Part shown: in pieces, positions 30,137 to 35,755 of the stretch | How the letters are laid out: each line of letters opens with the position of its first letter | Position numbering within the stretch: position 1 is the stretch's first letter | Virus record (IMG/VR): IMGVR_UViG_3300045454_000108 | Location: 1-35,755 of that record | Strand: one strand, 5' to 3' | Length of the DNA: 35,755 nt | Origin: a virus | The notes under the pieces: generated by a model | Seen by the model: only the letters and a program-made list of their open reading frames with translations | What the model was told of the DNA's origin: nothing | Databases searched by the model: none | Position numbers and translations under genes: made by a program

Positions 30137-30221
30137 CAACTGGGACTTCCTTTGTGTGGAAGGACGCTCGGTGCGTCCGAAGTTGAAAAGCCAAGGGCGC
30201 GCACCGAGCGGGACAACAGGG

Positions 30222-30908
30222 TCAGGATTTTTGTTCGGCGTGTTCGCGCAGGCGCTTGAGCGCGCGCTGGAACCGTTTGCGCGCGGCCGGTTCTGAAAGG
30301 CCCAGTTGCTGGCCCGCCTCCGCCTGGGTGTATCCGTCGATGACCACACGAAGGACCAGTTCTGCATCGACGCCGATGAGGTCGGTCAGCTCTGCAAGCA
30401 GGCGTTCCGGTGAAAGGTCCGGATCAACGAAATCCGCGATCCCGCCGTGCAGGTCAGTGTCGAACTCATCCTGTATGCCCTGGCGTGCGATTTCCCGATT
30501 GTGCGACCTGAGGATGTCCCGCTCGACGTTCTTGATGATGGTCGCAGCAATCCAGCTGACCTTCGAGAGATCAAGATCCCGGATCGCGGCCGTGGCACGC
30601 CCAAGAATCTCGGAGGCAAGTTCGTCAATCTGGCCGAGGCGTCGGGCGCGGGAACGCCGAAAGACGCCATCCAGTCCAGGCCACAGTGCAAGCAGCATAA
30701 GGGTAAGAGCACAGTCCCCGGCACGGTCGTTCGATTTGGCGCTCTCAATCAGCCCAGTCAGGATGGTGTTCTTTTTGTCCGCGGGCGCATCGCCGCGATG
30801 GAGGTGATCCAGCAATGCCGCCGGATCCGGAAAACGGTTCAATGCGCGGTGGCTGCTACGGACCGCGGCGAAGCCGCGATGGAAGTTAAGGGTGGAAGAA
30901 GAATGCAT
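30222..30908 (-). CDS. Sigma-70-like transcription factor
   Basis: A 228-aa protein starting at ATG 30908 (MHSSSTLNFHRG); an upstream ATG at 30944 is possible. Residues about 100-165 resemble a sigma region 2 helix set (ILGRATAAIRDLDLSKVSWI, NVERDILRSHNREIARQG). The C-terminus holds a region 4-like helix-turn-helix (GYTQAEAGQQLGLSEPAARKRFQ, then ALKRLREHAE). It lacks a full-length sigma layout and is shorter than housekeeping factors. It is probably a phage-encoded sigma-like regulator redirecting RNA polymerase to phage promoters; which genes it controls is unknown. It sits at the head of the early operon. Confidence 0.82.
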   Translation of the reverse strand: MHSSSTLNFHRGFAAVRSSHRALNRFPDPAALLDHLHRGDAPADKKNTILTGLIESAKSNDRAGDCALTLMLLALWPGLDGVFRRSRARRLGQIDELASEILGRATAAIRDLDLSKVSWIAATIIKNVERDILRSHNREIARQGIQDEFDTDLHGGIADFVDPDLSPERLLAELTDLIGVDAELVLRVVIDGYTQAEAGQQLGLSEPAARKRFQRALKRLREHAEQKS

Positions 30909-30944
30909 GAGATTCCCGTGGAAATCGTGCCACGTGAAGGACAT

Positions 30945-31044: not shown

Positions 31045-31287
31045 TCAGCGCAGCGCGGGGCTGGTCGCCGTATTCAGCGACGCGCAACCGCGGCAGGTGG
31101 CCACCACGGGGAAGCCCACGAGGTATTCGTGCCCCCGCGCGAAGCGCAGGTGCATCTGGCCGTCACGGCAGACGCCGAGCAGCTTGGCACAGCTGGTGCA
31201 GCGCCATTCACGTTCAGTGGTGAAAGGGGGCGTGCCGGCGTTGTGGTTCTGATTGGCCACGCGGCGAGAGTGGTAGGGAGTCGTCAT
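31045..31287 (-). CDS. Com-like zinc-ribbon protein
   Basis: An 80-aa protein starting at ATG 31287 with GGAG 8 nt upstream. It carries two CxxC pairs, CTSC and CRGC, in a Com-like frame (EWRCTSCAKLLGVCRDG ... FPVVATCRGCASLN). In phage Mu, Com is a zinc protein that binds the mom mRNA and relieves a hairpin that hides the mom ribosome-binding site. No mom homologue is present. The gene's own Shine-Dalgarno is buried in a perfect 11-bp hairpin (31289-31319), suggesting translational self-control or control by another factor. Confidence 0.82.
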   Translation of the reverse strand: MTTPYHSRRVANQNHNAGTPPFTTEREWRCTSCAKLLGVCRDGQMHLRFARGHEYLVGFPVVATCRGCASLNTATSPALR

Positions 31288-31288
31288 C

Positions 31289-31319
31289 GGGTGTGCTCCT
31301 CGTTTCAGGGAGCACACCC
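31289..31319. promoter_or_regulatory. Hairpin burying the Com-like Shine-Dalgarno
   Basis: GGGTGTGCTCC (31289-31299) and its exact complement (31309-31319) flank a 9-nt loop: a perfect 11-bp stem. On the minus-strand mRNA the 3' arm contains the GGAG of the Com-like gene and ends two bases before the ATG. No T run follows on either strand, so it is not an intrinsic terminator. It is best read as a translational operator. Confidence 0.7.
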
Positions 31320-31333
31320 AATAATCACCTCTT

Positions 31334-31371
31334 TGTTCGACCGTCCCGCATCGTATGTTCGACGCTTGTTA
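31334..31371. promoter_or_regulatory. Tandem operator candidate upstream of the Com-like gene
   Basis: TGTTCGAC occurs at 31334-31341 and 31356-31363, 22 bp apart (two helical turns), so repressor or activator dimers could bind the same DNA face. The right part also reads GTTC-N7-GTTA, one mismatch from the LexA consensus. The site lies between the 736-aa stop and the Com-like gene hairpin. Confidence 0.4.
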
Positions 31372-31378
31372 GACGGAC

Positions 31379-33589
31379 CTATGCAGTCTGCGTTGCGCCG
31401 ACCGCCAGCCGCCAATAACCCCGCTTGGCGCCTTGGGAGATGTAGACGTCCCGAATGCTGTTCCAAGCTTCCTTGCGGAAGGCACTTTGTGGGCTGCGAG
31501 TGCCCGGCCCTTCCATAAGCACTTTCACCTGCACGTCAGCGCTACCGGCAATATGCGCCGATACCAGTCGTTCAAAAATCTTGATTTGCTCAGCGCCAGT
31601 GAGGGTGAGCGGATCCTTGCCTGGTATATGCAGCGTAGCTGATTGCGTCCCAGACCGCAGAACTTGCGGTATCGCGCCGCCCCGTGCGAGCGTCAGGTTG
31701 TTTCGGTAGGCAAGCTCCAGGCCATCACGTGCAATCACCAGCTCTTCGCCAACTGGCGAAAGGTTGGAGAGTATGGGCACAACCACATTGGGGCCAAGGT
31801 AGGCAGGCATTTCGGAACTTGCGCACAGGACGATTCCCACGCCCGCGCTGTTCCGGGCACGGAGCATGACATCCAACCGGCTGATGGTTTTCAGATCATC
31901 GAGCCGCCGCGCGAAATACAACGGTACTTCAGCTGCATCGACCTGCATCGAGCCGAGCAAAGTCAGATCATCGTCAAAGGCTTCAGACGCACGCTTGTGC
32001 AGCAACGGCTTAAGCAAACGCAAAATGGTTTCGTGCAACCAATCCTTGTTGATCACATACATCTGCAGGTCAGGAGCTGGCCGTGTGCCCCCATCTTCAC
32101 CGAATGGGCCGATTGTCTGCACCATCGCAAGGGTGGCAGAGGGTTGGACACGGAACTCGCCATCGATCCCATGATCATCTCCGTGGATGACATCCTGCCG
32201 TTCGCGACGCTCCAGCAATCCGCCTTCGATCAGACGACCTGGATCCAGCCCCATTTCCTGAAGGCGCGAACCGCTCACTTGCTCGTCGACGCGATCGTAC
32301 AATTCCACCAGCTGCGAGAATATCGACCGCAAGTCGCCGTTTTCGATCTGCCTGAATGCGGTCATGATCCCCCAGGAGTCCAGCAATGCATATCCAAAGC
32401 TACGTTCTTCCGGATCCTTGTTGCTTTGAAGGTTGCAACTCTTGCTGCCCGCGATCGTAATGTTCAGCGTGCGCTCGCGCGCATCACCTTCCTTGCTGTA
32501 GGCAACAGCAATGCCGATCTTGCTGAAACCCTCGGCTCGGCTGAAGACGTTATTCGGCCTGAGGTACTGGTTTGCGATTTCCTCGATATCGTCTTCGATC
32601 GAAACCTTAAGCGACAGCTTTCGACTCCAGGATCCGAGCCGGACCTCGGCTTCGAGGACACGGGCAAGGCGGATGTCAAAGCCGGGAATGGAAGGAAGCG
32701 GCAGGCTGAACCCTGTCCGAAATCGCGAGAGGTTGTACCGCTTCCATGTGAGCGGCTTGCGCGAAACATCGTGTCCAAGCGCAACCTCGGCGAACGCACT
32801 GCTGATTTGTTGTCGGACGTTGGCGCTGTCGGCGCACACTTCGATCTGTCGGCTCGATGGCGTGTAAATCAAGGTCGCTTCGTTCGGCGGGCGGAAATAG
32901 ATCGTACCTCTGCGTCCATCGGCTTTATGGTCGTAGACGCTCGACAAGGGCCCGCCGTGCCGCACAATCAGCATAATTGATGCCAGATGCGTGGTTGTCG
33001 CGGGGAGATCCAGAGCTTTGACTGTGCAGGCAGTCTTGAGATCAAGAACCTTTGTGATTTGCTTCGCCAGCGCCGCTTCGTCGATTAAGGAAGCATCGAC
33101 GGCGACTGCCTTCTCGAGCTCGACCTCGAAGGCGTCGTACATCTTGCCATAGTCTCGGAACTGGCGTGCGAAATAGAAGCTCTCTGCGTCCTCGAAGCCC
33201 CTTCGCGCATTCAAGAATGACCATATGCTGCGGCAAAGTGGATCAGGCTGGTTCGTGAATTCTCGCAGCACATCCTCTTCGAACTGCTTTTCCGCAATTG
33301 TGTCGAGTGAGGAAATGCCTTTCCCGTCAGCAAGTGACCTCACCCTTCGACAGCGCTGCTCAATCGGACGCAAGTCATCAGTATCGAATTGTGACAGCGT
33401 ATCGATCAACTGTTTCCGAAAATCGCTGGCAGCATCAAAATTACCGGGATCAGGCACTTCATCCTGCAACCCGAAATCGGGCTCCGTGTCATTTTCACGA
33501 ACTGCGAGAAGCGACGCAAGAAGGTCGATCCTGGCATCTTCGATAATACCAAGGGCGAACGGTCCGATGGAATTTGGTTTTCGTGACAT
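31379..33589 (-). CDS. Orphan 736-aa protein with possible C-terminal winged helix
   Basis: Starts at ATG 33589 (MSRKPNSIGPFALGIIED) behind an AGGGGG Shine-Dalgarno. No known catalytic motif, signal peptide or TM segment is visible. Residues about 170-440 are mixed alpha/beta with conserved-looking strings (LIVRHGGPLSSVYDHKADG, GTIYFRPPNEATLIYTP). The last 70 residues look like a winged-helix module (LTGAEQIKIFERLVSAHIAG, then AFRKEAWNSIRDVYI and KRGYWRLAV). It occupies the usual repressor position, divergent from the recombinase cassette and downstream of a LexA-type box. A regulator or a cargo (for example, defence) function are both possible; neither is established. Confidence 0.85.
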   Translation of the reverse strand: MSRKPNSIGPFALGIIEDARIDLLASLLAVRENDTEPDFGLQDEVPDPGNFDAASDFRKQLIDTLSQFDTDDLRPIEQRCRRVRSLADGKGISSLDTIAEKQFEEDVLREFTNQPDPLCRSIWSFLNARRGFEDAESFYFARQFRDYGKMYDAFEVELEKAVAVDASLIDEAALAKQITKVLDLKTACTVKALDLPATTTHLASIMLIVRHGGPLSSVYDHKADGRRGTIYFRPPNEATLIYTPSSRQIEVCADSANVRQQISSAFAEVALGHDVSRKPLTWKRYNLSRFRTGFSLPLPSIPGFDIRLARVLEAEVRLGSWSRKLSLKVSIEDDIEEIANQYLRPNNVFSRAEGFSKIGIAVAYSKEGDARERTLNITIAGSKSCNLQSNKDPEERSFGYALLDSWGIMTAFRQIENGDLRSIFSQLVELYDRVDEQVSGSRLQEMGLDPGRLIEGGLLERRERQDVIHGDDHGIDGEFRVQPSATLAMVQTIGPFGEDGGTRPAPDLQMYVINKDWLHETILRLLKPLLHKRASEAFDDDLTLLGSMQVDAAEVPLYFARRLDDLKTISRLDVMLRARNSAGVGIVLCASSEMPAYLGPNVVVPILSNLSPVGEELVIARDGLELAYRNNLTLARGGAIPQVLRSGTQSATLHIPGKDPLTLTGAEQIKIFERLVSAHIAGSADVQVKVLMEGPGTRSPQSAFRKEAWNSIRDVYISQGAKRGYWRLAVGATQTA

Positions 33590-33795
33590 GCGCCCCCTGA
33601 GCATCGGTGATGCGTATACTGTGATTCGAGAGGGATGATCGCTGCCGCAGAGGCAGTTCGCAAGGGGGATGTTCCGCACTTGTTCACACCCTGTGGGCAG
33701 TCTTACCGCCCAGTGTCCCATTGAACATCGCTGCCTGGCTTTTCCGTCTTGGCACCACCGCTCGATTCCGTCGGGCACTAGACGGAGACCCCCAA
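33590..33795. promoter_or_regulatory. Divergent control region with LexA-type box
   Basis: A 206-bp region between the leftward 736-aa gene and the rightward recombinase cassette. It contains GTTC-N7-GTTC at 33671-33685, the LexA direct-repeat operator of alphaproteobacteria, and a GGGC / GCCC inverted repeat near 33693-33713. It must contain promoters for both directions, but no clear -35/-10 pair was found. Confidence 0.6.
33671..33685. promoter_or_regulatory. LexA-type SOS box GTTC-N7-GTTC
   Basis: The sequence reads GTTC CGCACTT GTTC, an exact match to the alphaproteobacterial LexA consensus. It lies 82 bp upstream of the 736-aa start and 110 bp upstream of the 68-aa start, so LexA could control either or both. 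Confidence 0.6.
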
Positions 33796-34002
33796 GTGAA
33801 ACGCCCGAACCCACTTCACCCGGACAAGATGTCGCCAGCCGCGCGGCGGGCTGAACTGTGTGATCTGCTTGGTGCGGGGCTTGCTCGCCTGCACCTGGGG
33901 AATATTAGTCAACTATCTGAAGAAGATGGAGACTTTCCGCTACACAACTCGCTCGAACAGAGCGGTAGTGCCGGTGCAACTCACCGGAGCAACGCACAAT
34001 GA
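33796..34002 (+). CDS. Small protein of the DUF2924-recombinase cassette
   Basis: A 68-aa protein starting at GTG 33796 with GGAG 8 nt upstream; the frame is open to 33721, but this start matches the usual form of such proteins (KRPNPLHPDKMSPAARRAELCDLL). The C-terminus is Ser/Gly-rich. Similar small proteins precede DUF2924 genes in alphaproteobacterial elements. Its stop overlaps the DUF2924 start by 4 bp (ATGA). Function unknown. Confidence 0.8.
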   Translation: MKRPNPLHPDKMSPAARRAELCDLLGAGLARLHLGNISQLSEEDGDFPLHNSLEQSGSAGATHRSNAQ

Positions 34003-34448
34003 AACCTGATCCCGTACTCGCACGGCTGGCGGCCATGAAGGAAGCGCCCATCGCTGAACTGAAGAAGCAGTGGCGCGAACTGTTCAATGAGGAGCCGCCG
34101 GCCTTCAACCGGCGCTACCTCGAAAGCCGACTGGCCTACCGCATCCAGGAACTGGCCTACGGCGGCCTGAAAGTGGAAACGGTCAAACGGTTGCAGCAGC
34201 TGGGCGAACAGCTCGACGGCGGCAACATCACTACCCGCCGAGTCCGCGCCGACCTGAAGCCCATCACCGGCACACGCCTGATCCGTGAATGGCAGGGGGT
34301 GGAGCACACCGTGACCGTCACCCTCGACGGCTTCGAATGGCAGGGGCGCCCCTACCAGTCACTGTCCGCAATCGCCCGCGCCATCACGGGCTCACGCTGG
34401 AACGGCTGGGTCTTCTTCGGCCTCAAGGATCATCGGAGGGCAGCATGA
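33999..34448 (+). CDS. DUF2924 protein
   Basis: A 149-aa protein with the DUF2924 pattern: LKKQWRELFNEEPPAFNRRY, LESRLAYRIQELAYGGL, GTRLIREWQGVEHTVTVT and a C-terminal YQSLSAIARAITGSRWNGW followed by FFGL. Found beside large serine recombinases; it may be a recombination directionality or DNA-binding factor, which is inference from linkage. It overlaps the recombinase start by 4 bp (ATGA). Confidence 0.92.
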   Translation: MKPDPVLARLAAMKEAPIAELKKQWRELFNEEPPAFNRRYLESRLAYRIQELAYGGLKVETVKRLQQLGEQLDGGNITTRRVRADLKPITGTRLIREWQGVEHTVTVTLDGFEWQGRPYQSLSAIARAITGSRWNGWVFFGLKDHRRAA

Positions 34449-35755
34449 ACAAACCGCTCGTCCGCAAGCTGCGCTGCGCGGTCTACACGCGCAAATCATC
34501 GGAAGAAGGTCTCGAGCAGGAGTTCAACTCGCTGCATGCTCAGCGCGAAGCCTGTGAGGCCTACATCACCAGCCAGCGTGCCGAAGGGTGGGTGCTGGTC
34601 CGCGACCAGTATGACGACGGCGGAATTTCCGGTGGCACCCTCGATCGCCCGGGATTGAAGCGCCTGCTTTCGGACATCGAGGACGGGCTAGTCGACGTGG
34701 TGGTGGTCTACAAGATCGACCGCCTTTCGCGATCCCTGATGGACTTTGCCAAGCTGGTCGAGGTGTTCGACCGAAACGATGTGACGTTCGTGTCGGTGAC
34801 GCAGGCGTTCAATACGACGACCAGCATGGGCCGGCTGACCCTCAATGTCCTTCTGTCCTTCGCCCAGTTCGAGCGCGAGGTGACCGCTGAACGCATCCGC
34901 GACAAGTTCGCAGCTTCCCGGGCCAAAGGGATCTGGATGGGCGGCGTCCCCCCGCTGGGTTATGATGTTCAGGCGCGAAAGCTGGTGGTGAATGAAACGG
35001 CCGCTGCCAATGTCCGCTACATTTTCCAGCGGTTCCGCGATGTCGGCTCGGCCACACTTCTGCTGCGGGAATTGCGGGAGCAAGGTATCACGACCCGGCA
35101 AGGCAAGACGATTACCAAGGGCTACTTGTATCGCCTGCTCGCCAACAAGGCCTACATCGGCGAGGCCGTTCACAAGGGTAACAGTTATCCCGGCGAACAT
35201 GACGCGATCATTGATCAGGAGCTCTGGGATGCTGTGCGCGCCATCACGAAGGAAAGCCCTCGGACCCGGGCAAACCGTTCGCGCGCCAATACGCCTGCGC
35301 TGCTGAAGGGGCTGCTCTGGGGTTCGGACGGCGGGGCGTTTTCACCGACCCACTCCTGCAAGCACGGCAAGCTCTACCGCTACTACGTCAGCCAGACGCT
35401 GCTCCGCCACGGAGCAGGCTCCACCACGGTCGGACGCGTGCCTGCCGCCGAAATCGAAGGCGCGGTCGTCAACCAGCTGCGGGCCGTGTTCCGGCAGCCG
35501 GAAATCATCATCGGCGCATGGAAGGAGGCCGTCAAACACGCCCCCGCAATGACCCAAGATCAAGCGCGGGATGCACTGATCAATCTGGACCCCATGTGGG
35601 ATGAACTGTTCCCGGCCGAGCAGGCCCGGATCGTGCAGCTCTTGGTCGACCGGGTCATTGTTGGCAGCGCCGGACTGGAACTGAAGCTGAGGGTTGACGG
35701 GCTCGATGCGCTGGCCCGCGAACTGCAGGTGCCTGAACTGGAGGAGGCAGCGTGA
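34445..35755 (+). CDS. Large serine recombinase (probable integrase)
   Basis: A 436-aa recombinase starting at ATG 34445. The N-terminal resolvase domain has the nucleophile motif VYTRKSSEE (Ser18), the DDGGISGGTLDRPGL loop, YKIDRLSRSLMDF and the helix FAQFEREVTAERIRDK. The recombinase domain follows (GIWMGGVPPLGYDV, TKGYLYRLLANKAYIGE). The C-terminal zinc-ribbon region is degenerate: only one Cys (THSCKHGKLYRYY) is visible where a four-Cys ribbon is usual. It could excise and integrate the phage, but a transposon-type or independent cassette is possible because att sites were not seen. It ends exactly at the window edge. Confidence 0.92.
   Translation: MNKPLVRKLRCAVYTRKSSEEGLEQEFNSLHAQREACEAYITSQRAEGWVLVRDQYDDGGISGGTLDRPGLKRLLSDIEDGLVDVVVVYKIDRLSRSLMDFAKLVEVFDRNDVTFVSVTQAFNTTTSMGRLTLNVLLSFAQFEREVTAERIRDKFAASRAKGIWMGGVPPLGYDVQARKLVVNETAAANVRYIFQRFRDVGSATLLLRELREQGITTRQGKTITKGYLYRLLANKAYIGEAVHKGNSYPGEHDAIIDQELWDAVRAITKESPRTRANRSRANTPALLKGLLWGSDGGAFSPTHSCKHGKLYRYYVSQTLLRHGAGSTTVGRVPAAEIEGAVVNQLRAVFRQPEIIIGAWKEAVKHAPAMTQDQARDALINLDPMWDELFPAEQARIVQLLVDRVIVGSAGLELKLRVDGLDALARELQVPELEEAA

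Follow-up and report, generated by a model that had tools for sequence, protein, structure and literature searches.

The 736-aa gene at positions 31379..33589 (minus strand) of the window, the whole stretch of viral DNA of 35,755 nucleotides that was analysed here, is probably an SOS-controlled master regulator of the early lytic genes of its phage. This gene, called c0 below, probably encodes an activator that works like PrtN of the Pseudomonas pyocins; we infer the sign of regulation from the arguments given below. The assignment draws on comparison of c0, of the DNA on both sides of it and of its gene neighbourhood across related loci.

The open reading frame fills the interval, with an ATG at 33589 and a stop codon at 31379; the plus strand across the same interval contains many stops. 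A G-rich Shine-Dalgarno sequence (CAGGGGGCGCATG) lies upstream of the ATG, and dN/dS is 0.07-0.10 in comparisons with four relatives (L001, L011, L012 and L014). c0 is a real, intact gene under purifying selection, and the long, Shine-Dalgarno-led gene described in an earlier sequence-only reading is confirmed, as is its slightly low GC content (0.53-0.59 along c0 versus 0.60-0.68 in most windows nearby). Profile searches returned a single family, PHROG 37634 (E = 7e-20), which covers the N-terminal half only and has no assigned function; no meaningful match was obtained in Pfam, NCBIfam, PADLOC or PDB sequences. The same reading had called the product a protein without a recognisable family and the best candidate in the window for an undescribed function, and the lack of a characterised family and the undescribed function were both borne out. 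The literature searched (mostly non-subscription papers) contained no account of the c0 family, nor any report that these phages use a LexA-controlled regulator, and the family appears to be undescribed so far.

Approximately 100 c0-related loci were collected from bacterial genomes, viral contigs, a few plasmids and the Acidithiobacillus phage AcaML1; among the bacteria, Roseisalinus antarcticus CECT 7023 and Roseibaca ekhonensis CECT 7235 harbour relatives. Within a large group of temperate phages, whose hosts are mostly Alphaproteobacteria, c0 belongs to the core genes and gene order is nearly constant: a recombinase and a DUF2924 gene and, divergent from them, c0, a Cys-pair protein, a sigma-like protein and the replication genes. 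In the neighbourhood survey, c0 opened the early operon, divergent from the DUF2924-recombinase pair, in about 80 loci. In the window, the DUF2924 protein is encoded at 33999..34448 (plus strand; PF11149, E = 2e-52) and the serine recombinase (integrase), assigned from its translation and present in 81 loci, at 34445..35755 (plus strand); the AcaML1 counterpart of the latter is annotated as 'site specific recombinase large subunit'. On the other side of c0, the first gene past the operator, as in most loci, encodes an 80-aa, zinc-ribbon-like protein with two CxxC pairs (31045..31287, minus strand), for which no Pfam match above cut-off was obtained. The 240-aa phage sigma factor, Sig, is encoded at 30222..30944 (minus strand) and matches Sigma70_r4_2 (E = 3e-07) and PHROG 1740 (RNA polymerase sigma factor; E = 1.3e-09). 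Elsewhere the record carries terminase, portal, capsid, tape-measure and replication genes, recognised largely by inspection of translations. The DUF2924 and recombinase genes form its right end, and it stops (position 35755) at the recombinase stop codon. Relatives have an additional gene of ~127-131 codons beyond this point, so that the window probably ends short of the prophage end.

The sequence-only reading had placed the gene in the repressor position, where a lysogeny regulator or a defence cargo gene is usually found. The position is indeed that of a regulator, at the start of the early operon. The word repressor probably does not fit: c0 is co-directional with the lytic genes and first in their operon, and is therefore not an opposing repressor gene, whereas a CI-type repressor gene would be opposed to the early lytic operon. 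Among 44 members of the c0 family, no Pfam match to an XRE-type HTH or to an S24 peptidase domain was found.

Judged by profile-profile comparison, c0 corresponds to two genes fused into one; in other phages these are adjacent but separate. Its N-terminal half comprises residues ~1-412 and its C-terminal half residues ~423-730; a split N gene (~390 aa) matches residues 12-412 (E = 3.9e-24) and a split C gene (305-330 aa) matches residues 423-730 (E = 9.6e-22). Many of the split N-C pairs are divergent from genes for an XRE-type regulator and an ImmA/IrrE-type peptidase (Peptidase_M78). Since these phages already have a separate XRE/ImmA switch beside the pair, it is likelier that a switch controls the c0 protein, or the proteins of the pair, than that they are the repressor of that switch, and a lysogeny repressor is judged unlikely on this ground as well as on gene order. 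The loci with this second type of switch (L120-L154, L113 and L114) contain neither a sigma gene nor the TGTCCC-N17-GGCTTT motif described below. Several of the split pairs have other genes beside them. An Xre-RES toxin-antitoxin-like pair is inserted right after the C gene in L114 (8441-9675) and also in L135 and L139; in L163 (4366-10431), a large gene that looked primase/helicase-like on inspection comes after a chromosomal island-like N-C pair; and the Tenderia electrophaga plasmid of L029 (7839-12520) has its split N and C relatives immediately 5' of Multi_ubiq, JAB and ThiF genes.

AlphaFold models of c0 have a mean pLDDT of 84 for the whole protein and 88 for the C-terminal half. Residues 661-730 (31400..31609, minus strand) show the winged-helix order of helix, strand and wing at a pLDDT of ~90, so that the possible C-terminal winged helix of the sequence-only reading is now supported by structure models. 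A fold search with the whole model returned weak likeness to RdgC, CENP-N and RnlA, too weak for a fold to be named: the local similarity to E. coli RdgC, RnlA NTD/NRD and CENP-N has a TM of 0.33 or below and is accompanied by no sequence match. This likeness raises the question of whether c0 is instead a replication or recombination protein, such as an RdgC-like toroid or an origin binder, with the repeats behind the gene serving as origin or loading site. The RdgC comparison has a probability of 0.98, with a TM of 0.15-0.33 and an rmsd >10, and the replication genes do lie downstream of c0, but no c0 match to RdgC was found in the sequence profiles of Pfam or in PDB, and a fold search with the C-terminal half alone gave no match below E 0.03 and returned none of RdgC, RnlA and CENP-N. 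The repeats, moreover, number just three and are followed by a predicted -10 element and the next gene, and an iteron-type origin was rejected because c0 and its flanks contain no long repeat array. We regard a role in replication as very unlikely.

The repeats themselves form the putative operator. The stretch from c0 to the next gene carries three helically phased direct repeats (minus strand): repeat 1 (GTCTAACA, 31367..31374), repeat 2 (GTCGAACA, 31356..31363; 11 bp from repeat 1) and repeat 3 (again GTCGAACA, 31334..31341; 22 bp from repeat 2). The 11+22 bp spacing is 11+23 in divergent alleles. In most fused loci the triple repeat comes right before a conserved TGATTA, which in the window is TGATTAT (31321..31327, minus strand), lies 14 bp on from where repeat 3 starts and is predicted to serve the next operon as its -10 element. 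When repeats were scored at fixed spacing, 30 out of 35 non-redundant loci reached 21/27 or more, versus 2 out of 999 control windows.

The word that is repeated differs between loci and does so together with the winged helix. Proteins with SPQQAF in this domain are paired with GTCTAACA, those with SP[AP]DAW with [GA]TCCGA, those with G[IL]QQML with GTCGATGA and those with SVGQLF with [AG]TTGATG; the repeat words of classes other than that of the window include GTCGATGA as well as GTCCGACA. Mean operator identity was 0.60 among 251 pairs of loci with similar flanks and different winged helices, and 0.93 among 21 pairs with different flanks and similar winged helices. Locus L062 is, from its sequence, a natural chimera with the body of one class and the tail and operator of another: its residues 1-600 match proteins of the GTCTAACA class at 62-74% versus 54-55% for L025 and L074, whereas its tail is nearest to those of L025 and L074 (60-65%), and so is its operator. 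The segment at residues 676-721 predicts the repeat word best: the partial rank correlation with the operator, calculated in sliding segments along the protein, is highest at residues 676-715 (0.42), with a second, weaker peak at residues 421-460; the loci are related, so these correlations do not represent independent events. A single-residue code at residue 702 (Q/S/N) was considered and rejected: it is clean in 4 loci but is broken by L075 and by L073, which has SPQSAF and yet carries GTCTAACA repeats.

The split-gene phages served as an independent test. Comparable repeats, spaced 12+23 or 12+22 bp, were found behind their C gene in two classes of C (maximum in shuffled sequences, 21/27); a third class of split C had no such repeats behind the gene. 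In L120 and L121, the XRE, ImmA and N products are 97-100% identical to the same reference, and it is C and the repeats behind it that differ. The operator varies with the DNA-binding domain, as in a regulator with a linked operator, and the pairing of the c0 winged helix with the repeats is strongly supported by these sequence comparisons.

The alleles also appear to move as a unit. c0 alleles that are only ~34% identical occur in phages whose flanking genes are ~90% or more identical; between L013 and L080, for example, identity is 92% for the recombinase, 93% for DUF2924, 95% for the Cys-pair protein and 95% for Sig, but 35% for c0. DNA similarity between these two loci ends ~150-190 bp 5' of c0 and returns just before the next gene, which would make the c0 gene, its upstream control region and its operator one exchangeable cassette. 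In another locus, L087 (1-2262), the early genes after c0 are ~87-98% identical to those of the window and c0 is only 33% identical; there, repeats of another word, GAACTC, lie within the end of the c0 coding sequence. Deeply divergent alleles in near-identical phages might also be expected of a defence or superinfection-exclusion gene diversified by conflict with other phages, and the plasmid relative does adjoin Multi_ubiq, JAB and ThiF genes. However, c0 has no PADLOC match and is core, not optional, in its phage group, which speaks against the defence cargo of the sequence-only reading; changes of allele are matched by changes of operator; and no convincing c0 relative turned up at 10 other Multi_ubiq loci, of which some were truncated by the end of their contig, so that membership of a bacterial ubiquitin-like operon was rejected. 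We therefore consider a defence function highly improbable.

On the upstream side, GAAC-N7-GAAC was found 87-100 bp 5' of the start codon in 57 out of 71 close relatives, with 33 different spacers, compared with an overall background of 0.06 per kb; the information content of the half-sites was set by the search, so weight is placed on position, frequency and spacer variety. In the window this element is GAACAAGTGCGGAAC (33671..33685, minus strand), which we predict to be a LexA (SOS) box of the alphaproteobacterial type. The SOS box of Caulobacter is GTTCN7GTTC (PMC9578287, PMC12700426), and it is this sequence, read on either strand, that is present in the c0 promoter region. The same box adjoins lexA in three carrier genomes (G001, G002 and G003). 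It is followed by TTGC and, ~17 bp later, by GATTAT-like elements; alignment of the upstream regions of 29 non-redundant loci yielded the predicted c0 promoter TTGCGA-N17-GATCAT (33635..33663, minus strand). A sigma-70 consensus scan did not detect a c0 promoter, and the prediction stems from the comparison; a sigma-54 reading of the region was rejected for its wrong spacing (by inspection), and an Rfam search returned nothing. Some observations count against the proposed reading. The box sits just 5' of the -35 element and not over it. LexA of some Alphaproteobacteria has been reported to activate as well. The exact box is absent from 14 of the 71 close relatives and from all 11 distant loci, namely nine alleles ~34% identical from the same phage group, AcaML1 and the plasmid relative.

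It could be argued that c0 is a regulator but that c0 itself, or another phage factor, and not LexA, binds GAAC-N7-GAAC. The half-sites are 11 bp apart, as are operator repeats 1 and 2, and an AAC(A) core is common to the box and the operator repeats. Against this, L025 and L062 keep the box unchanged although their winged helix and operator are of another class; the box is independent of the class of winged helix, which makes a host factor a likelier binder than c0. It also matches exactly the box that precedes lexA in carrier genomes. A binder other than LexA thus seems quite unlikely, and LexA remains our preferred candidate.

With the box and the operator in place, the sign of regulation can be considered. 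c0 might bind the repeats and repress the next operon, as a lysogeny repressor or a Cro-like repressor made from the LexA-box promoter. Repeat 3 falls between the predicted -35 and -10 elements, which fits repression, and allele swaps inside near-identical flanks recall the way in which immunity regions are exchanged. We nevertheless hold repression to be unlikely, given that c0 is upstream of, and co-directional with, the lytic genes. Three further points count against it and favour activation: (i) an SOS-induced repressor of the lytic genes would oppose and defeat induction, (ii) the split-gene phages already possess XRE/ImmA, with which the pair coexists, and (iii) C and the repeats of L121 are set apart by a terminator-like hairpin and its T run, so that the next operon needs a promoter of its own.

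The sigma factor would extend such activation to other operons. TGTCCC-N17-GGCTTT was present in 84 out of 86 loci with Sig versus 5 out of 67 without, and those five hold c0 relatives or fragments; among the 184 hits in Sig-bearing loci, 182 had a spacing of 17. Two copies in the window are predicted Sig-dependent promoters, one for the rest of the early operon (30187..30215, minus strand) and one for the DUF2924-recombinase genes (33714..33742, plus strand). From this co-occurrence we infer that Sig may act at TGTCCC-N17-GGCTTT promoters.

In the mechanism that we propose, host LexA in a lysogen would occupy GAAC-N7-GAAC at the c0 promoter and keep c0 off. DNA damage leads to cleavage of LexA, upon which c0 would be made first. 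Its winged helix would bind the three phased repeats directly behind its own gene and thereby switch on the next operon, encoding the Cys-pair protein and the sigma factor. The sigma factor would then serve the TGTCCC-N17-GGCTTT promoters of the replication genes and of the DUF2924-recombinase pair.

Among known systems, PrtN, LexA-controlled antirepressors and GIL01 come closest to c0, and the likeness is one of function. PrtR keeps PrtN off and is cleaved by way of RecA, whereas host LexA is predicted to play this part for c0 (PMC8609362); c0 further differs from PrtN in being a two-part protein of 736 aa with an operator directly behind its own gene. Tum of phage 186, AntC of N15 and GfoA/GftA of the Gifsy phages are LexA-controlled antirepressors, which, like c0, tie prophage induction to the SOS response via a LexA box before one phage gene (PMC3121763). 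These antirepressors are small and inactivate a phage repressor, whereas c0 appears, from prediction, to bind DNA itself, and no gene for a phage repressor was recognised in the window. In GIL01, as proposed here, host LexA serves as the phage repressor, and no c0-like protein was seen in the part of that report that was available (PMC4551915). AcaML1 gp6 is a sequence relative of c0 (27.7% over 88%) but has a different gene order, and neither a LexA-type box nor a significant triple repeat was found there.

In its broadest form, which we put forward as possible rather than probable, the proposal describes a widespread group of alphaproteobacterial temperate phages without a repressor of their own, in which lysogeny depends solely on host LexA and its silencing of a single gene; this gene would be the founder of a new regulator family and would travel in a self-contained, swappable cassette (box, regulator and triple-repeat operator) whose exchange between otherwise near-identical phages changes both operator specificity and mode of induction. 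For a hitherto unnamed gene, core to a large phage group, the main proposal suggests a role, a target site and a signal for induction. The family would also offer a ready system for the study of specificity, with at least six natural repeat classes (four fused and two split), a natural chimera and phage pairs in which the DNA-reading gene is the main difference. Prophages with the box are predicted to respond to DNA damage; those with divergent alleles without it may not.

A further element was noted between the operator and the Cys-pair gene. A near-perfect 14-bp inverted repeat at 31286-31322 ends at the start codon of this gene and spans its Shine-Dalgarno sequence, and its GCTCC...GGAGC arms are also found in relatives, which suggests translational control of the Cys-pair protein.
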